Shown: positions 5,064 through 55,917 of the stretch, piece by piece
Layout of the letters: every line of letters starts with the position of its first letter
Position numbering within the stretch: position 1 is the stretch's first letter
IMG/VR virus record: IMGVR_UViG_3300021442_000581
Coordinates: 1-64,000 of that record
Source: a virus
Strand: one strand, 5' to 3'
Length of the DNA: 64,000 bases
Position numbers and translations under genes: made by a program
The notes under the pieces: model-generated
Seen by the model: only the letters and a program-made list of their open reading frames with translations
Databases searched by the model: none
What the model was told of the DNA's origin: nothing

Positions 5064-5100
5064 TTGACTTTTCACGTGTAATTGTTATATATATTATTAA
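5064..5100 (+). promoter_or_regulatory. Candidate promoter before the polA-like gene, possibly leaderless
   Basis: TTGACT at 5064-5069 matches a sigma-70 -35 box well. An AT-rich -10 candidate (TATATA, 5086-5091, or TATATT, 5090-5095) follows, and the ATG at 5101 comes only 5-9 bases later. No Shine-Dalgarno sequence is visible. The transcript may therefore start at or almost at the start codon. Confidence 0.5.
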
Positions 5101-6369
5101 ATGGTTATAGAAAACAATAAGCAATATTCTACGCTTATAGATTTGATTCGTGGTAAAGATGTAGCAATAGTTGTAATTCGAGATGACTACAGAATACATC
5201 CCAGAAAATCTAAGGCTATTGTTGCGTCGTTATGTTGTGGATCAGAAAAATACGATATAATATTTAGCCATTCAGAATCTACTTCGAATTTACATCCTGC
5301 AAACATTCAAGAATTAAATGTTGCAAAGAGATTTTGGGTTGATGATGCTAAGCAATTTTATCATTTAACCGGGTTTAAAAATATCTATGATGTTAAAATT
5401 ATGAATTGGGCTAATGATAAAGAATATCCTGATTTACCGATACCGGGTGTTTTTGATTTTGTATACAATAGAGCTAAAAAGGATGGAAATAAAATAGTAC
5501 CATTGATGAAGGTTTTAGAGTATTCTAGAGATCGTTTACTAAATTTGGGAAAGATGAGCGATGAACTAAGCATTACACGGTCTGCTTTAAAGTATAATAG
5601 GTCATCAATTTATTTGGCGAATATTGAATCTGTTGGTATGAAAACAATTGATGATTATTGGTATTCAAACTATAATATGTATACTTCAACTGGAAGACCG
5701 TCAAATACTTTCGGCGGAATAAATTTTGCAGCGTTACCAAAGGAAGATGGAACAAGAAAACAAATAATTTCTAGACATGAATCCGGAATGTTAATAGAAT
5801 TTGATTATGATGCATACCATTTAAGATTGTTGGGAAATGTGTTAGATTATAAATTTCAATTTGATAAGTCCTTACATCAATATTTTGCAGATGAAGTCTA
5901 TCATTGTACGTATGAAGAAGCAAAAACTAAATCATTTCAAATTTTGTATGGAAATTTACCAATAGATGAAAAAAGAAATCCGTTTTTTTACGGAGTTGAT
6001 AGACTTGCTCATGCTATCCAAGATGAGTTTAGTAAGTACAAATGCTTCAAATCTCATATTTATAAGAAACCGTTTGGAATGGAGAGCGTAATTGACGTCA
6101 ATAAAAATAAACTGCTTAATTATTACACTCAGTCATACGAAACCGAACGAAATATGGAAGTTATTGGTAAAATCCAATACTATTTAAGGGAGAAGAAAAC
6201 AAAAATGATTTTGTATACTTACGATAGTTTCCTATTTGATTTTGATATAAAAGAAGGATTAGATATTATTAAAGAGCTTAAAAAAATATCAGAAATAGAT
6301 TCGTTTCCAGTTAGGGTAAAAGCTGGATCAGACTACGATTCACTGAAAGATATAACAGCGAGGTTATAA
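5101..6369 (+). CDS. Minimal family A DNA polymerase-like protein
   Basis: 422 residues. The order of motifs is that of a Pol I palm/fingers. A TGRPSN...GGINFAALPK segment is followed by the motif A equivalent IEFDYDAYHLRLLG, which keeps the metal-binding Asp of DYSQIELR. Then comes motif B (EEAKTKSFQILYGN, the K...F..YG pattern) and a motif C equivalent YTYDSF in place of the usual HDE. There is no room for a complete 3'-5' exonuclease domain, and the size is well below a normal Pol I. Divergence in motif C (Tyr-Asp-Ser) means activity is uncertain. A complete family B polymerase is encoded at 22855, so this is a second polymerase-like protein. It may serve repair or gap filling, or be degenerate. 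Confidence 0.65.
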   Translation: MVIENNKQYSTLIDLIRGKDVAIVVIRDDYRIHPRKSKAIVASLCCGSEKYDIIFSHSESTSNLHPANIQELNVAKRFWVDDAKQFYHLTGFKNIYDVKIMNWANDKEYPDLPIPGVFDFVYNRAKKDGNKIVPLMKVLEYSRDRLLNLGKMSDELSITRSALKYNRSSIYLANIESVGMKTIDDYWYSNYNMYTSTGRPSNTFGGINFAALPKEDGTRKQIISRHESGMLIEFDYDAYHLRLLGNVLDYKFQFDKSLHQYFADEVYHCTYEEAKTKSFQILYGNLPIDEKRNPFFYGVDRLAHAIQDEFSKYKCFKSHIYKKPFGMESVIDVNKNKLLNYYTQSYETERNMEVIGKIQYYLREKKTKMILYTYDSFLFDFDIKEGLDIIKELKKISEIDSFPVRVKAGSDYDSLKDITARL

Positions 6370-10663: not shown

Positions 10664-10716
10664 AAAGTTATAAAAAAATCACATTTTGAGAATTTTACAG
10701 TATATATATTTTATAG
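10664..10716 (+). promoter_or_regulatory. Candidate promoter (TTGAGA-N13-TATATT family)
   Basis: An AT-rich tract is followed by TTTTGAGA (10684-10691) and, 13 bases later, TATATT (10705-10710). The same arrangement occurs before the SSB gene (11349-11373). The two regions are alignable over about 50 bases, including an upstream TTATAAAAAAAT tract. It would drive the structured RNA that follows. The spacing is not that of sigma-70, so the true -10 may be shifted within the AT run, or a phage factor may be needed. Confidence 0.45.
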
Positions 10717-10740
10717 AATATATATTATTCTATATGTTTT

Positions 10741-11269
10741 TTGAAAATTTGGAAAATGAAAGTGTGTGAGTTGATCGCTTGCACATGGGATTGACAGAAA
10801 AAATCCTTTCCAGAAGAGGGGGTTATTGTTGAGTAAATTCACCCGTGGTGGGTTCCTAAAGGCCGAAGTGCTGGCTCAAATGTGAGTAATAGGAAAACGA
10901 CAGTTTAGAATTGAAAGATATGTCATGAACTATACGAAAAGAGCTACTTTTCTGCTTCATTCTGAGAGAGTGATAGAAATATCGAGATTCTCAGCCTAGT
11001 GTTACCTAAAAACCCGTGAGTGATGGGGAAGGTGTAATGACAGGAGTTGTGTCCACTCCAGCGAAGTTAACCACTTTAAGGAGTAACCGATCGTAACTGA
11101 TTGGGTTGTTAGCATGAAGTCAAATAAAATCATTCATGACCCGTGACATTTGTAAGTGTATGCAAATCTTACATCCCCAATATATTTTCCAATTTTATAG
11201 AGATTGCCGTACTAGCGTTTTAGTCTCCACTATATAATGACTTAAAAACCTTTGCGGCAATCTTTTATA
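10741..11269 (+). ncRNA. Large structured non-coding RNA (about 530 nt), class unassigned
   Basis: This stretch has no plausible coding frame and is richer in G+C than neighbouring gaps. It folds by eye into many local helices: GGATT/AATCC (10788-10792/10802-10806); TTCCTA/TAGGAA (10853-10858/10890-10895), enclosing GCC/GGC and TCA/TGA hairpins as a three-way junction; and CTGAGA/TCTCAG (10962-10967/10989-10994), enclosing GATA-GAAA-TATC with a GNRA tetraloop. Further right are a CCC/GGG hairpin near 11013, GGAGT/ACTCC (11043-11047/11055-11059), CATGAA/TTCATG (11113-11118/11133-11138) and TGTAAG/CTTACA (11151-11156/11168-11173). It ends in a terminator-like helix. Size, ornateness and a phage setting recall the GOLLD and ROOL classes, but I could not match their conserved cores. 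No RNase P, tmRNA or intron core was recognised. Confidence 0.7.
11201..11266 (+). terminator. Terminal helix/terminator of the structured RNA
   Basis: AGATTGCCG (11201-11209) pairs perfectly over nine bases with CGGCAATCT (11255-11263), followed by TTT. The 45-base loop is unusually long for an intrinsic terminator, so the helix may equally close the 3' domain of the RNA. Confidence 0.5.
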
Positions 11270-11328: not shown

Positions 11329-11376
11329 AATTATAAAAAAATTAACTTTTGAGATTGTTCAAGAATATATATTTAT
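11329..11376 (+). promoter_or_regulatory. Candidate promoter for the SSB operon
   Basis: TTTTGAGA (11347-11354) followed 13 bases later by TATATT (11368-11373), with an upstream ATTATAAAAAAATT tract. This is nearly the same sequence as 10664-10716. The SSB ATG at 11423 has its own AAGGAG site, so the transcript has a leader of about 40 nt. Confidence 0.5.
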
Positions 11377-13359: not shown

Positions 13360-14368
13360 CAATTACGCACAAATTTTAGACCAACTCAAAGACAACGTAT
13401 CAAAGCCACAAAGTGTTAATGATCATGTCTTAATTGTAGACGGTCTAAATAACTTCATTAGAGCTTGGTCTGCTTCCCCTGCGACTAATTCTGATGGAGT
13501 TCATATCGGTGGAATGATAGGGTTTTTACAAAGCGTCGGCTTAGCAGTAAGAACCCTTCTTCCAACGAGAGTTATAATAGTATTTGATGGTGCAGGTGGT
13601 TCTCAAAGAAGACGTAAAATTTACAGTGAATATAAGGGAAATCGTAAACCACCAAAACGTCCTCATAGATTTCAGGGTATGGATGGAGAAAATGATGCTA
13701 CAAGTATGCGCAGACAAATTAATAGATTGGCTCAATATTTGTTATTGCTTCCAGTAAACACAATTTCAATTGAAAAGATAGAGGCTGATGATAGTATAGG
13801 TTATATTACTACTAAATTATTACCGGATTCTAAGATTTCTATTATGTCTTCTGATAAGGATTTTTTACAACTGGTAAATGATAAGGTTTCAGTATGGTCT
13901 CCAACAAAAAAGATATTATACGATAGAACAAGAGTAGAAGAAGAATTCGAAATGCCTCCAGAAAATATGATTTATTACAGAATAGTAGATGGTGATAAGT
14001 CAGATAATATACCAGGAATTAGAGGATTTGCTCTTAAAACTATTTTGAAAAAAAATCCATTTTTGAAAAGTGAGAAGATAAGTAATATAGAAGAATATAT
14101 ACAAAGGTCAGGTTTTGATAGTTATGAAGATTTACTACGTAGAAATTACACATTGATGCAATTGGATGATGTGAATATTTCTGGTAGTGCTAAATTAAAA
14201 ATACTGGATGTAGTTAATTTGCTCCCTCATAGGTTGATAAAATACAAGATTCATAGGTTGTTTTTAGAAGATAAAATAAATCAAGCTATTAGAAATCCTG
14301 ATGTATGGTTACAAAATACGTTTAATAGGTTAGACATGGTTATTGAAAATGACTCCTCCAATAAGTGA
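13352..14368 (+). CDS. rnh: RNase H / 5'-3' exonuclease (FEN family)
   Basis: 338 residues with the acidic motifs of the FEN/5'-nuclease family: VLIVDGLNNFIRAW (first Asp near 30), VIIVFDGAGGSQRRRKIYSEYKGNRKPP, EADDSIGYI, SSDKDFLQL, and the helix-hairpin-helix lead-in YRIVDGDKSDNIPGIRG. T4 RNase H of this family removes RNA primers from Okazaki fragments. It overlaps UvsX and the helicase gene, so the three are one translational unit. Confidence 0.88.
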   Translation: MRSNYAQILDQLKDNVSKPQSVNDHVLIVDGLNNFIRAWSASPATNSDGVHIGGMIGFLQSVGLAVRTLLPTRVIIVFDGAGGSQRRRKIYSEYKGNRKPPKRPHRFQGMDGENDATSMRRQINRLAQYLLLLPVNTISIEKIEADDSIGYITTKLLPDSKISIMSSDKDFLQLVNDKVSVWSPTKKILYDRTRVEEEFEMPPENMIYYRIVDGDKSDNIPGIRGFALKTILKKNPFLKSEKISNIEEYIQRSGFDSYEDLLRRNYTLMQLDDVNISGSAKLKILDVVNLLPHRLIKYKIHRLFLEDKINQAIRNPDVWLQNTFNRLDMVIENDSSNK

Positions 14369-15725
14369 TTCATTAACAAAATACGGAAGTAGTTTCCAAA
14401 CTAAGATTATTACAAGTCTTTTAGTTAAGGAAGAATTTATTCAAACAATATATGATTTAATTCAACCTGAACAATTAGATACAGAAAGTAAGCAATGGTT
14501 AGTTAGAGAAATAAAGGCATATTTTTATGAGTATAAGGTTTTACCAACATTAGATTCTTTAAAGGTAAAGATTACTCCAATAACAAATGAAATATTAAAA
14601 GAATCAATTGTTGATGAATTACGTGAGGTAATGAAATATGTTGAAGCTACTGATTTAGATTTTATTCAAAATGAAACTATACAATTCTGTAAAAATCAAG
14701 CATTAAAGAGTGCAATTGTACAGTCTGTAGACCTCCTTCAACGGGGAGAATATGACAACATCAAAAGAATTATAGACAATGCTATGAGAGCTGGTACCAG
14801 AAGGGATATAGGTTTAGAATATGTTAAGGATTTTGATACAATTATAGATCAAGTTGCTAGAGACACAGTTAGTACTGGTTTTATGGCAGTAGATGAAATA
14901 ACCGATGGTGGATTGGCTGGTGGAGAACTTGGAATTGTTGTTGCTCCATCTGGTATTGGTAAGAGTTGGGTTTTACAGGCTTTAGGTGCCAATGCTTTAA
15001 GAGCTGGAATGAATGTAATGCACTACACTTTAGAATTAAATCAAGCCTATGTTGGACTGAGATACGGTGCTATATTTTCTAAGATTGAAACTTCTATGAT
15101 ACCAGATAAGCGAGATAAAGTAAAGAAAATGATAGAGGACCAATGTAAGGGTGAACTATTAATAAAATATTATCCATCGAAAGCAGCTAGTGTACAGACT
15201 ATTTATACACATTTAAAAACCGTTGAATTAATGGGTCATTCCCCAGATATAATTTTGTTAGATTATGCTGATTTGTTAACTGATACATCAGGAATTGGAG
15301 AGTTACGACATCAATTGGGAAACATATATGAAGAATTACGTGGACTAAGTGGTGAGTTTGGAATTCCAGTATGGACGGCATCTCAATCAAATAGGTCAAG
15401 TTTGGAAGAAAACGTTATTGGTGCAGAAAAAATTGCAGAATCGTACAGTAAGGTCATGACGGCTGACTTTGTAATGAGTTTATCTCGAAAAATTGAAGAT
15501 AAGGTTGCTAATACTGGACGTATACACATAATTAAGAACAGGTTCGGACCGGATGGATTAACTTTTCCCACTACTATGAATACAGCCATCGGTCAAATAG
15601 AAGTGTATGAATCGGGAACCTCCAGTGGAATGACCGTCCAAAACAGGATGGATAATGGAAACGAATATGTCAGAAAATTGCTTAAAAAGCGCTACGATGA
15701 ATTTGAAACTCAGCAATCGGATTAA
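14349..15725 (+). CDS. 41: Replicative DNA helicase, DnaB/gp41 type
   Basis: About 458 residues. An N-terminal all-helical domain is followed by a RecA-like motor: Walker A VVAPSGIGKSWVLQALG (near 200), a DnaB H1a-like YTLELNQAYVGLRYGA, Walker B ILLDYADLL, and motif H3 PVWTASQSNRSS. It is a ring-shaped 5'-3' helicase for fork unwinding. The reading frame also opens at TTG 14343. I chose ATG 14349; either way it overlaps the RNase H gene. No primase gene is recognised in the window. Confidence 0.9.
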   Translation: MTPPISDSLTKYGSSFQTKIITSLLVKEEFIQTIYDLIQPEQLDTESKQWLVREIKAYFYEYKVLPTLDSLKVKITPITNEILKESIVDELREVMKYVEATDLDFIQNETIQFCKNQALKSAIVQSVDLLQRGEYDNIKRIIDNAMRAGTRRDIGLEYVKDFDTIIDQVARDTVSTGFMAVDEITDGGLAGGELGIVVAPSGIGKSWVLQALGANALRAGMNVMHYTLELNQAYVGLRYGAIFSKIETSMIPDKRDKVKKMIEDQCKGELLIKYYPSKAASVQTIYTHLKTVELMGHSPDIILLDYADLLTDTSGIGELRHQLGNIYEELRGLSGEFGIPVWTASQSNRSSLEENVIGAEKIAESYSKVMTADFVMSLSRKIEDKVANTGRIHIIKNRFGPDGLTFPTTMNTAIGQIEVYESGTSSGMTVQNRMDNGNEYVRKLLKKRYDEFETQQSD

Positions 15726-20547: not shown

Positions 20548-20620
20548 GGGGCTGTAGCTCATTTGGGAGAGCGCCGCACTTGCACTGCGGAGGTAGTAGG
20601 TTCGATCCCTATCAGCTCCA
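20548..20620 (+). tRNA. tRNA-Ala (anticodon TGC)
   Basis: Full cloverleaf: acceptor GGGGCTG (20548-20554) with CAGCTCC (20613-20619), D arm GCTC...GAGC, anticodon stem CCGCA/TGCGG with loop CTTGCAC (anticodon TGC), T arm with TTCGATC. Discriminator A; CCA is not encoded. Confidence 0.95.
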
Positions 20621-20625
20621 CTATT

Positions 20626-20697
20626 GACCCCGTCGTCTAGTGGTTAGGACATCAGGTTTTCATCCTGGGAACAGCAGTTCGATTCTGCTCGGGGTTA
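20626..20697 (+). tRNA. tRNA-Glu (anticodon TTC)
   Basis: Acceptor GACCCCG (20626-20632) with CGGGGTT (20690-20696; first pair G-U). Anticodon stem TCAGG/CCTGG with loop TTTTCAT gives TTC. T arm AGCAG-TTCGATT-CTGCT. Discriminator A; no encoded CCA. Five bases after tRNA-Ala, so probably one precursor. Confidence 0.94.
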
Positions 20698-20699
20698 CA

Positions 20700-20764
20700 A
20701 AAAAAGTTATAAAAAGTGAAAAAAAGCATGTACTTATATAGTAAAAAAGGTGTATATTCTTAGT
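20700..20764 (+). promoter_or_regulatory. Phage promoter, CATGTAC-N19-TATATT family
   Basis: CATGTAC (20727-20733) is separated by 19 bases from TATATT (20753-20758), with an A-rich tract (AAGTGAAAAAAAG) just upstream. The same pair with the same spacing occurs at 48146, 55750 and 58590. Six bases (CTTAGT) separate TATATT from the ATG at 20765, so the predicted transcription start is the A of the start codon. Confidence 0.7.
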
Positions 20765-21244
20765 ATGGAAAAGATAGTTATATTTGATTTAGATGGAACT
20801 CTTGCAATTATCGATAGACGAATGCAATTGGCTACCGGTGGTAAGAGTACCGAATCTGATTACAAGAAAATAAATTGGGATGTGTTACACGATCCAGCTA
20901 ACGTTCAACTTGATGTACCTAATGTACCAATTGTAAAAATTTGTCAGTTATTTGCAGAAAATGGTTACACTATTTACATTTTTTCTGGAAGATCTGATAG
21001 AACCGAAAGAACTACTAGATCTTGGTTAGCACATAATCGTATACCATTTCATAAATTGGTTATGAGACCGCATACTAAACAAGAGATGTATACCCCAGAT
21101 GAGGTGTTAAAGAAGCGTATGTTAGATAAACATATAGCGGATAAAAATGATGTTTTATGTGTATATGATGACAGACAAAAGGTAGTAGATATGTGGAGAA
21201 GTGAAGGATTGCTTTGTTGTCAGGTTGCACCCGGTAATTTTTAG
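20765..21244 (+). CDS. HAD-family polynucleotide 3'-phosphatase-like protein
   Basis: About 160 residues. HAD motif I is FDLDGTLAIIDRR. Motif II lies in YIFSGRSDRTERTT. The C-terminal part (VMRPHTK...DEVLKKRMLDKHI, then VYDDRQKVVDMWRSEGLLCCQVA) is the signature of the phosphatase domain of T4-type polynucleotide kinase. The kinase domain is missing, so it would act only as a 3'-phosphatase on nucleic acid ends. ATG 20765 is preferred over GTG 20750, which lies inside the promoter -10. No Shine-Dalgarno sequence is seen, consistent with a leaderless message. Confidence 0.8.
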   Translation: MEKIVIFDLDGTLAIIDRRMQLATGGKSTESDYKKINWDVLHDPANVQLDVPNVPIVKICQLFAENGYTIYIFSGRSDRTERTTRSWLAHNRIPFHKLVMRPHTKQEMYTPDEVLKKRMLDKHIADKNDVLCVYDDRQKVVDMWRSEGLLCCQVAPGNF

Positions 21245-46633: not shown

Positions 46634-47155
46634 ATGGCTAAGAAAGCAGCATCATTTGAGTATAATGGTACATTAATCAAAGTATTAGATGGTGATACAA
46701 TTGATTGTTGGATCGATTTAGGATTTGATCTAAAAATTAAAAAAAGAATTAGATATATGGGTATTGATACTTGGGAATCACGTACTAAAAACCTAGATGA
46801 AAAGAAATTGGGTCTAGCAGCGAAAGCACGAAACAAAGAGTTGTTAGAGGGTGGAGTTTTTAAGATAGTTTCTCATGGTACTGGAAAATTTGGCCGAGTT
46901 TTAGGAGAGATTTTCGTACAGGAAGAAGCCGTAGGTGATTCAGTACCTGAGGGTGTAGACAGAAGCGCAGATGGATTAGTTAGTATTAATGACATATTAA
47001 TGGCAGAAGGTCATGCTTACGAATATCATGGTGAAAAGAAGAAAGATTTTAAAGCAGAAGTACTAGCAGAGAAAAAAGCAGCGTTAAGTGCAGTGTACAC
47101 TCCAGCAGTCGATCAACCCGATTATGAGGATAAACAGGTATTGTATAAATCATAG
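46634..47155 (+). CDS. Thermonuclease (SNase) family nuclease
   Basis: 173 residues: IKVLDGDTIDCWIDLGF (calcium-binding DGDT), RYMGIDTWESR, and GKFGRVLGEIFV with the catalytic Arg of the SNase fold, followed by INDILMAEGHAYEY. It has no signal peptide, so it acts in the phage-infected cytoplasm or in the virion. It may degrade host nucleic acid. GGAG precedes the start. Confidence 0.88.
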   Translation: MAKKAASFEYNGTLIKVLDGDTIDCWIDLGFDLKIKKRIRYMGIDTWESRTKNLDEKKLGLAAKARNKELLEGGVFKIVSHGTGKFGRVLGEIFVQEEAVGDSVPEGVDRSADGLVSINDILMAEGHAYEYHGEKKKDFKAEVLAEKKAALSAVYTPAVDQPDYEDKQVLYKS

Positions 47156-47163
47156 AGGATTAA

Positions 47164-48135
47164 ATGTACAATTTAGGTTATTTACGTCAAATAGACGTTA
47201 ACATTACAGACCTCTGTAATAAAACATGTAGTTTTTGTCCTAGACATAGCAAAGACGTATATCCAAACAACAACGAAAACATTTCTATTGAGCTTTTTAC
47301 TAAAATAATAGACGAGTGTAACGAGCAAGGATTTGAAGGGGATATTATGTTATGTGGTAGAAGCGAACCAACTATGCATCCTCAATACGAAGAAATATTT
47401 GATCTTCTTACTCAAGACGGAAAAACTTGGAATGCGTGTATAACAACAAATGGTTATAAACTAGAAAAATATTGGGATAGATACTACAATAAATTAGATG
47501 GTATGATTTTGAATACATACACTACTAGACGGGATTACGAAGATAGAGTACAAAAATACGGTTATGATTTAAAAAGCAATCACAAGAGATTTGGAGTTGA
47601 ACAGTATTTCAAACCCGATGGTCAAACTGTTCAAGAAATAAATTCTAGTGCAAATAGGTTTCAAATTCCAGATGGACCAGGACGCTGGTATAAGCATGAC
47701 TTTAATAGCAGATGTGGCATACAGGAACATTCAGAAAAGGCTGATACTAGATGGCGTAAATTGCCGTGTAGTCATACTTTAGACTTGTTATTTTTAAACT
47801 TTGATGGTAAAATTCACATGTGTTGCAATGATTGGGGTCCAGGTGGAGGTAAGGGTCAGACAGAAGTCGGAGAGTATGTTACAAAAAATATTTTTTATGC
47901 TTATAGAAAAAATAAAAAACGAGCTGAAATTACGCATCATCTTTTAAACGGAAGACGGAACATGATGGAAGCTTGTACTAACTGTACTATGACCACAGAT
48001 TCTCAAGAACACTGTAAGAGTGCTAAAGAAGATTGGCAATTACAAAATTATATGGCTAAATTAATACAGTCGAAGGATGAATATTACCACGATGAGGATT
48101 CTCTAAAGGTGATACCATGGGGTGATGAAAAATAA
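47164..48135 (+). CDS. Radical SAM enzyme with C-terminal Cys-rich (SPASM-like) domain
   Basis: 323 residues. The 4Fe-4S SAM motif is DLCNKTCSFCPRHS (CxxxCxxC). GDIMLCGRSEPTMHP corresponds to the SAM-binding GGEP-like strand. C-terminal cysteines (LPCSHTL, HMCCND, ACTNCTM, HCKSA) suggest auxiliary Fe-S binding. Such enzymes modify peptides, sugars or small molecules. Neighbouring glycan genes make a sugar-related role possible; a second radical SAM gene lies at 57125. Confidence 0.85.
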   Translation: MYNLGYLRQIDVNITDLCNKTCSFCPRHSKDVYPNNNENISIELFTKIIDECNEQGFEGDIMLCGRSEPTMHPQYEEIFDLLTQDGKTWNACITTNGYKLEKYWDRYYNKLDGMILNTYTTRRDYEDRVQKYGYDLKSNHKRFGVEQYFKPDGQTVQEINSSANRFQIPDGPGRWYKHDFNSRCGIQEHSEKADTRWRKLPCSHTLDLLFLNFDGKIHMCCNDWGPGGGKGQTEVGEYVTKNIFYAYRKNKKRAEITHHLLNGRRNMMEACTNCTMTTDSQEHCKSAKEDWQLQNYMAKLIQSKDEYYHDEDSLKVIPWGDEK

Positions 48136-48183
48136 TGAAAAAAAGCATGTACATGTACCGGTTTTTTGTATTATATTCAAGCT
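48130..48183 (+). promoter_or_regulatory. Phage promoter, CATGTAC-N19-TATATT family
   Basis: CATGTAC (48146-48152), 19 bases including ACCGGTTTTTTG, TATATT (48172-48177). Six bases (CAAGCT) then separate it from the ATG at 48184, the same spacing as at 20765, so the message should be leaderless. CATGTAC overlaps a 10-base palindrome GTACATGTAC. Confidence 0.75.
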
Positions 48184-48429
48184 ATGAATACATATTATAT
48201 ATTATTAACTGATGATGGGCCGGATGAATTAATGTTTGATAGTAATATATTGGGTCAAGAGAGTTTTGGTACATTCTATGCAGAAAGAGGAATGAAATCA
48301 CTGTATGATATATTGGATAAGCATCCAGAATTGGTTTCTGAAGTTGAAATAGTTACAGATACAGGTGTACATTTTACTATTACAGAGTTTATGGATAAAT
48401 TAAATGATTGGCGGTTACTATTTAATTAG
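48184..48429 (+). CDS. Small hypothetical protein, probably leaderless message
   Basis: 81 residues, acidic (TYYILLTDDGPDELMFDSN, HPELVSEVEIVTDTG). The start ATG 48184 lies where transcription from the promoter is expected to begin; the frame opens 18 bases earlier inside the promoter, which I reject. No Shine-Dalgarno. Family not recognised. Confidence 0.55.
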   Translation: MNTYYILLTDDGPDELMFDSNILGQESFGTFYAERGMKSLYDILDKHPELVSEVEIVTDTGVHFTITEFMDKLNDWRLLFN

Positions 48430-48438
48430 GAGAATGCA

Positions 48439-48609
48439 ATGAACCAACATTGGCAAAAATATGCAGAAGAATTTGAAGACTTAGAAGAACGTGAAATAAG
48501 AAAAGCGTATAAAAATAGGCCTGGTAAAAAATTAGATCATAAACAAGAAAAGAAACTAAAGGAGAGAAAGAAAAATGAAGTTCAATATCCTAAAAAATCT
48601 AAGCGTTAG
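48439..48609 (+). CDS. 56-aa highly charged small protein
   Basis: ATG 48439 has AGGAG nine bases upstream. The product is almost all Glu, Lys and Arg (EEFEDLEEREIRKAYKNR, KQEKKLKERKK), predicted to be one long helix. It overlaps the lipoprotein gene by 35 bases and carries that gene's ribosome-binding site (AAAGGAGAG). Likely real but of unknown role. Confidence 0.5.
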   Translation: MNQHWQKYAEEFEDLEEREIRKAYKNRPGKKLDHKQEKKLKERKKNEVQYPKKSKR

Positions 48610-55631: not shown

Positions 55632-55739
55632 ATGATTCGAAAACTTATCACTTGGTTCAAATTGAAATTACCAAAAAGAAAAGTTTTTCATCATGCGATA
55701 AGTAAAATGCCATATTATGGTGAATTTATCGGAGAATAG
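55632..55739 (+). CDS. 35-aa basic peptide
   Basis: ATG 55632, one base after the upstream stop; basic and amphipathic (IRKLITWFKLKLPKRKVFHHAISK). Its stop touches the promoter at 55741. Coding is plausible from packing but unproven. Confidence 0.4.
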   Translation: MIRKLITWFKLKLPKRKVFHHAISKMPYYGEFIGE

Positions 55740-55740
55740 T

Positions 55741-55781
55741 GAAAATAAACATGTACATTAACCGGTTTTTGTTTGTATATT
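55741..55781 (+). promoter_or_regulatory. Phage promoter, CATGTAC-N19-TATATT family
   Basis: GAAAATAAACATGTAC with CATGTAC at 55750-55756, 19 bases including AACCGGTTTTTG, TATATT at 55776-55781. Here a leader of about 40 nt with a TTGAGG site precedes ATG 55825. Confidence 0.75.
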
Positions 55782-55824: not shown

Positions 55825-55917
55825 ATGACAACAATACTTTATATCTTAACAATCATCGCTTATCTGTGGATAGGCATAAAAGATCCTGCTGGATTAATGC
55901 CAAAGGCGGTAAAATAA
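55825..55917 (+). CDS. 30-aa membrane peptide
   Basis: ATG 55825 with GAGG nine bases upstream: a hydrophobic helix (TTILYILTIIAYLWIGI) then KDPAGLMPKAVK. First gene after the promoter; its stop overlaps the next ATG (TAATGG), a coupled arrangement that supports translation. Confidence 0.5.
   Translation: MTTILYILTIIAYLWIGIKDPAGLMPKAVK

Follow-up and report, generated by a model that had tools for sequence, protein, structure and literature searches.

Two genes with start codons six bases behind a -10 hexamer

The window analysed here, the first 64,000 nucleotides of the 70-kb virus record IMGVR_UViG_3300021442_000581, carries at 48184 a small gene whose ATG stands directly behind a promoter-like element. 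The features of this locus are as follows:

48135-48152, + strand: upstream A-tract and -35-type box ATGAAAAAAAGCATGTAC of the 48184 promoter, common to five promoters of the record and to sister phages
48172-48177, + strand: -10 hexamer TATATT of the 48184 promoter, with an equivalent TAGATT, TAGGTT or TATATT in nine of nine lineages
48184-48429, + strand: predicted leaderless gene of 81 aa, with no Shine-Dalgarno (SD) site, an ATG aligned with residue 1 of its homologs and a predicted mRNA 5' end at 48184
48439-48609, + strand: 56-aa gene that follows in the cluster and has a normal SD site ttaggagaatgcaATG (dG -7.3)

The record belongs to an uncultured T4-like marine phage. T4-type proteins are matched by PHROG (DNA polymerase gp43, UvsX, gp41 helicase, ribonucleotide reductase and a gp25-like baseplate protein) and Pfam (gp32). 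Identity to cultured phages is low (26% for the polymerase, up to 54% for UvsX, in Microcystis phage Mel-JY01), and a megablast search of a 22-kb part against cultured phages gave no match. Bacterial genome collections contained three sister contigs, and the assignment of two of these to Alphaproteobacteria MAGs is only a hint at the host.

An earlier note on this DNA had remarked that the ATGs at 48184 and 20765 lie exactly six bases after TATATT. The coordinates are exact: TATATT (48172-48177) is followed by CAAGCT and the ATG at 48184, and TATATT (20753-20758) by CTTAGT and the ATG at 20765. The second locus consists of the following features:

20548-20698, + strand: tRNA-Ala and tRNA-Glu, directly 5' of the 20765 promoter (ARAGORN, Rfam)
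20716-20733, + strand: A-tract and -35-type box GTGAAAAAAAGCATGTAC of the promoter of the phosphatase gene, its 16-nt core identical to the box at 48137
20753-20758, + strand: -10 hexamer TATATT of the 20765 promoter, kept in the related contigs L006, L007 and L008
20765-21244, + strand: predicted leaderless gene for a polynucleotide kinase (PNK) 3'-phosphatase (HAD_PNKP), 159 aa, matching PF25109 from residue 3 (E=3e-33)

The 16-nt box GAAAAAAAGCATGTAC occurs at both sites without a mismatch, exactly 19 nt 5' of TATATT. Three slightly altered copies of the element, two in the window (55739 and 58579) and one beyond it (66328), bring the family promoters of the record to five, four of them within the window; in these five and in the sister phages the A-tract and -35-type box are always found 18-19 nt 5' of the -10 element. 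An operator palindrome in the CATGTAC...CCGG part was considered and rejected, as the near-palindrome at 48140-48167 is absent from other family members.

Pairing with the 16S tail was scored in kcal/mol for 70 genes, whose median is -5.8 compared with -2.4 at random positions. The two lowest scores of all belong to the gene at 5101 (+1.5, the worst) and to the 48184 gene (+0.9, the second-worst). The 20765 gene reaches -3.9 only through an AAGGTG that lies in the promoter spacer and ends 12 nt before the ATG, so that neither 48184 nor 20765 has a usable SD site, as had been claimed.

Both start codons appear to be correctly placed. The 20765 protein has the DLDGT motif of HAD phosphatases close to its N-terminus, and this position, together with the domain match from residue 3, identifies ATG 20765 as the correct start; a GTG 15 nt upstream is conserved in the group, but only as part of the promoter GTGTATATT. 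Since tRNA genes rather than a reading frame lie upstream, translational coupling is excluded at this gene. At 48184, the alignment with a 52% identical homolog begins at residue 1, and the only upstream in-frame start in the window is a TTG at 48166, inside the promoter. Conserved upstream start codons, which the earlier note named as an argument against leaderless initiation, were not found in the 48184 family, as in eight homologs no in-frame start lies between the upstream stop and the ATG.

A promoter family with and without leaders

The earlier note took the identical spacing in two unrelated genes to argue against chance. This holds insofar as both sites belong to one promoter family, but the bare pattern TATATT-N6-ATG is at chance level, with five sites in the window against 2.8 +/- 1.7 in shuffled sequence and hence no significant enrichment. 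It is therefore the context, one shared promoter family, that gives the spacing its significance, not the pattern itself. A 51-nt promoter matrix, applied to the phage and its sisters, scored 27 sites at more than 31 bits and left the range from 12 to 31 bits empty, a gap that identifies the GAAAAAAAGCATGTAC-like element at several loci as a promoter family. Two members in the window are leadered:

55739-55781, + strand: leadered family member, 38.3 bits, with 43 nt between the -10 and the ATG at 55825 and with TTGAGGTTAC; the reading frame at 55825 has fewer than 35 codons
58579-58621, + strand: leadered family member, 37.4 bits, with 47 nt between the -10 and the ATG of the 58669 gene

In a non-circular test, a matrix was trained on 19 leadered promoters alone. 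Run on eight phage records, it returned 35 strong sites, the leaderless ones included (the 20765 promoter scores 42.3 bits), and 0.6 Mb of shuffled sequence, scanned on one strand, gave none. The distances from the -10 to the next ATG are bimodal: nine of the 35 sites have 5-6 nt, a single site has 12 nt and all remaining sites have 22-47 nt. One of the nine, before a 224-aa gene in the phage G018, was removed from the set of clear leaderless sites, as its homologs suggest a later start, probably an internal ATG with its own SD site. Of 20 leadered sites, 16 have an SD site of -5 kcal/mol or better, compared with none of the eight clear leaderless sites (Fisher p = 0.00016). Because some of the sites are orthologs of one another, such p-values overstate their independence. 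The leaderless sites represent five distinct gene families, namely the 48184 gene, PNK, thymidylate kinase, a 182-aa gene and a 157-aa gene, and make up about a quarter to a third of the family promoters. All predicted leaderless starts are AUG. Across 707 ORF starts, TAKATT peaks at 5 nt before the start, with 11 occurrences against about 1.9 expected. Folding of the first 40 nt did not show the predicted leaderless genes to be clearly less structured than others.

Conservation in sister phages

As sole query against viral contigs the 48184 protein found no match, while a two-sequence profile found 27 homologs; cultured phages yielded no homolog. Among the closer homologs, the ATG lies 5-6 nt after a -10 hexamer in nine of nine lineages, that is, in the window and in eight others with genes 52-65% identical to it, one of which comes from a contig of an alphaproteobacterial MAG. 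The earlier note had proposed to check the spacing in sister phages, and it is thus conserved. The hexamer is TAGATT, TAGGTT or TATATT and has a pairwise identity of 92% (40% when shuffled), compared with 41-51% for the upstream 12-nt blocks (30-46% when shuffled). Several phages of this family have CTTT(T/C)AT or CTTTAC where the window has CATGTAC, indicating that the -35 element has turned over while the distance to the ATG has stayed. In four members of the family (L201, L204, L205 and L206) the -35 element is strongly altered; the leadered-trained matrix missed these sites, which were placed by homology alone. More distant homologs, at 36-46% identity, mostly lack the promoter, and their ATG overlaps the upstream stop codon (ATGA), so the leaderless placement is not universal. 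Within the closer family (52-65% identity) the arrangement is, judged from these sequences, stably maintained.

The neighbourhood of the gene is also partly shared, with homologs of the 48439 gene following those of the 48184 gene in four sister records. A radical SAM gene (47164-48135) separates the endonuclease gene at 46634 from the 48184 gene; no homolog of it was found in the sister phage G009, where the counterparts of the endonuclease and 48184 genes adjoin.

The six-base spacing at 20765 likewise recurs in a sister phage, as it is kept in L008, a 92% relative in which the discriminator CTTAGT has become CTATAT, half changed with its length kept, and in which the tRNA context differs. 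The L006 and L007 contigs are identical at this promoter. A remote PNK gene (L016, 47%) is preceded by TTGACT-N18-TAAATT-N6-ATG, and in G009 the PNK gene is located elsewhere and has a leader with its own SD site.

The gene at 5101

A similarly close arrangement had been noted at 5101, behind a different promoter:

5086-5095, + strand: -10-like TATATATATT of the 5101 promoter, with TTGACT at 5065-5070
5101-6369, + strand: probable leaderless or near-leaderless gene of 422 aa, SD dG +1.5, whose orthologs align from residue 1

Behind TTGACT, the start reads TATATATATT-ATTAA-ATG, and the closeness of the -10 to the ATG, with a promoter type of its own, is indeed found. The description of the gene as polA-like fared less well. 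It has no Pfam or PHROG match to a family A polymerase, and a single 28% homolog in Flavobacterium phage immuto is annotated as 'DNA polymerase family A'; the clear DNA polymerase of the phage is the 22810 gene. In four of five orthologs (49-55% identity) TATATATA(T) lies 4-10 nt 5' of the ATG, and the fifth has a leader. The T4 late promoter TATAAATA is rare directly 5' of starts and TATATATA is more frequent. Given that the 5101 gene sits a few genes 3' of the gp25-like baseplate gene, it is possible that TATATATA is this lineage's counterpart of the T4 late TATAAATA.

Discussion

Why the start codons of a few genes should sit where a leader would be expected is most simply explained if their mRNAs have no leader. 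We consider it quite probable that these mRNAs are leaderless and arise from phage promoters whose transcription start coincides with the start codon, a proposal of the earlier note that both the sequence and its conservation in sister phages support. The placement of the ATG appears real rather than accidental, since distant sisters retain it even though the rest of the promoter has changed. In outline, the strong promoters of this family combine an A-tract with a -35-type box, which reads CATGTAC here and CTTTAC in sisters, and with a -10 of the form TATATT or TAGATT behind a spacer of 18-19 nt. An AT-rich leader and then an SD site come after most copies, whereas at a few genes there is no leader and the start codon would occupy the transcription start. 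The promoter family, its spacing, the lack of SD sites and the conservation can be read from the sequences themselves, and the point at which transcription begins, the polymerase and the mode of ribosome binding are inferred from them. A sigma-70-type RNA polymerase, presumably that of the host, would recognise the -10 and begin the RNA 6-7 nt downstream, at the A of the AUG; where the gap is five bases, transcription must start on the sixth base, because the start codon would be truncated if it began at position 7-8. 70S ribosomes could then bind the 5'-terminal AUG directly and translate without an SD site. Such 5'-AUG leaderless mRNAs do bind 70S ribosomes directly, and efficient leaderless translation in E. 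coli requires AUG (PMC9031893).

It is possible, albeit unlikely, that translation proceeds mainly from read-through transcripts, by non-SD initiation or coupling, and that the promoter only boosts the downstream genes, its truncated transcripts not being translated from the ATG. Read-through transcripts from upstream genes could indeed cover the leaderless genes, the next gene at 48439 has a good SD site, and the mostly promoterless, ATGA-linked homologs at 36-46% identity indicate that the 48184 gene can live by coupling. Coupling is inapplicable at the two sites in the window, however, as the upstream stop lies about 48 nt from 48184 and the 20765 gene comes after tRNA genes. Moreover, such a scheme leaves unexplained why the ATG is held 5-6 nt from the -10 in nine lineages and why an SD site is absent. 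A very improbable alternative is that the hexamer is not part of a promoter but a translational element in the mRNA, such as a protein- or ribosome-binding site. The hexamer is fixed relative to the ATG even where the -35 box is unrecognisable (in the 48184 family, e.g. L201 and L203), as this alternative would predict, but the identical hexamer, with the same -35 box at 18-19 nt, also stands 22-47 nt before leadered genes. That TATATT or TAGATT followed by N5-6 and ATG is mere chance in AT-rich DNA can hardly be maintained: the window shows no enrichment of TATATT-N6-ATG as such, but the shared upstream box, the bimodal distances, the lack of SD sites and the nine conserved lineages speak against chance, and spacing conserved beside divergent flanks already contradicts it.

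Leaderless mRNAs are rare in E. coli, and among phages two clear examples can be named. In phage lambda, the cI mRNA made from PRM starts at the A of its AUG. It has been described as leaderless (PMC9031893), and most middle and late transcripts of the Thermus phage phiYS40 have been reported to be leaderless (PMC3594737), so leaderless phage mRNAs as such are already known. The likeness to phiYS40 is that phage genes have mRNAs lacking leader and SD site, but there the leaderless state was shown experimentally, in a Thermus host, whereas here it is predicted for a few genes of T4-like marine phages. Nor is a programme of the phiYS40 type apparent, as leaderless sites are a minority of the family promoters, the median SD of the genes is strong and, unlike in phiYS40, one promoter family serves leadered and leaderless genes alike. 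Lambda cI is a single repressor gene of a temperate phage, whereas here several unrelated genes of T4-like phages are concerned. In bacteria, leaderless genes have a published in silico mark, a TA-like signal located about 12 bp 5' of the start (Zheng 2011, PMC3160421). In Caulobacter, of note given the hint at an alphaproteobacterial host, leaderless mRNAs are common, with 375 that are translated as well as leadered ones (PMC4117421). The present sites resemble such TA-led genes in lacking an SD site and in having the first T of the -10 at position -12 (20765 and 48184) or -11 (sisters), in agreement with the distance of about 12 bp, but those surveys concern bacterial and archaeal chromosomes, whereas here phage genes in a mostly leadered promoter family are involved.

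As a promoter, the element can be compared with known T4 classes. T4 early promoters have an upstream A-tract, a -35 GTTTAC, a spacer of 17-18 nt and a TATAAT-like -10. The CTTTAC of the sisters resembles this -35, and the A-tract and spacing fit as well; the window differs in its CATGTAC (TGTAC), and the -10 is TATATT or TAGATT. Recognition by the host polymerase is putative. In T4 MotA middle promoters the box is centred near -30; the conserved box here extends from about -38 to -32, as expected of a -35 element. What appears new is the existence of conserved, gene-specific leaderless starts within a mostly leadered T4-like promoter family, of which we found no description in an incomplete literature search.

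At other genes than 48184 the leaderless state appears to have been gained or lost, for example where a promoter acquired a new neighbouring gene or a gene left its promoter. The promoter that follows the tRNA in G009 serves the thymidylate-synthase gene, which has a leader and SD site there, and in the window PNK lies, leaderless, between the promoter and thymidylate synthase; the two arrangements indicate that the leaderless state can arise when a gene is inserted at a promoter and disappear when one is lost from it. Moreover, the consensus discriminator CTAATATAA is one base away from CTAATATGA, and a point mutation could thus create an ATG at the start site. Thymidylate kinase has TAGATT-N5-ATG in two sisters (66% identity), and the 182-aa gene is leaderless in G013 and leadered in its G009 ortholog. 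A role as a timing or priority device, which the earlier note had suggested, is speculative, and a fixed role is disfavoured by several genes that lack a leader in one phage but have one, or are coupled, in another. A further, rather doubtful, scenario is that leaderless initiation is a selected, gene-specific control trait, the ATG having been kept through promoter turnover for a distinct level or timing of expression. Initiation at a 5'-AUG might then matter when infection changes the balance of ribosomes or initiation factors.

One promoter family thus has two outputs, and the leaderless form has been kept across diverged genomes for at least one gene family. Natural pairs of leaderless and leadered orthologs exist in the 182-aa gene (G013/G009) and in PNK (G000/G009), which makes the purpose of leaderless translation in infection directly testable. 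Gene callers that rely on SD sites may misplace leaderless starts.

Further observations

In the sister phage L107 (3362-3420) a family promoter is followed by five bases, an ATG and a 12-codon frame MEKVYINTTLKA, which may encode a leaderless peptide or represent a gene whose start has decayed. The TATATATA motif lies 5' of several genes in sister phages (e.g. L131, L252 and L253), and in G009 and G012 it precedes the ATG of the ortholog of the window's 32229 gene by 4 nt. At the gathering score, an Rfam search found only tRNAs. Below it, the manA RNA motif RF01745 was matched at 11004-11172 (+ strand; 40.4 bits, E=8e-9, gathering score 55.2), in an intergenic stretch of about 0.8 kb 5' of the gp32-like gene 11423. 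Similar promoter-like stretches (AAAAAAATyACwTTTTGAG ... TATATATwTT) lie on either side of the manA-like RNA, at 10680-10740 and 11337-11375, and may form a second class of promoters, akin to the one at 5101. From 58669 onward the phage is continued, at about 100% protein identity, by IMGVR_UViG_3300032130_000001 (G007), a 53-kb contig of a different metagenome. Finally, the sister phage L237 encodes at 13582-14487 a single protein that joins a thymidylate kinase to a thymidylate synthase-like segment at its C-terminus.
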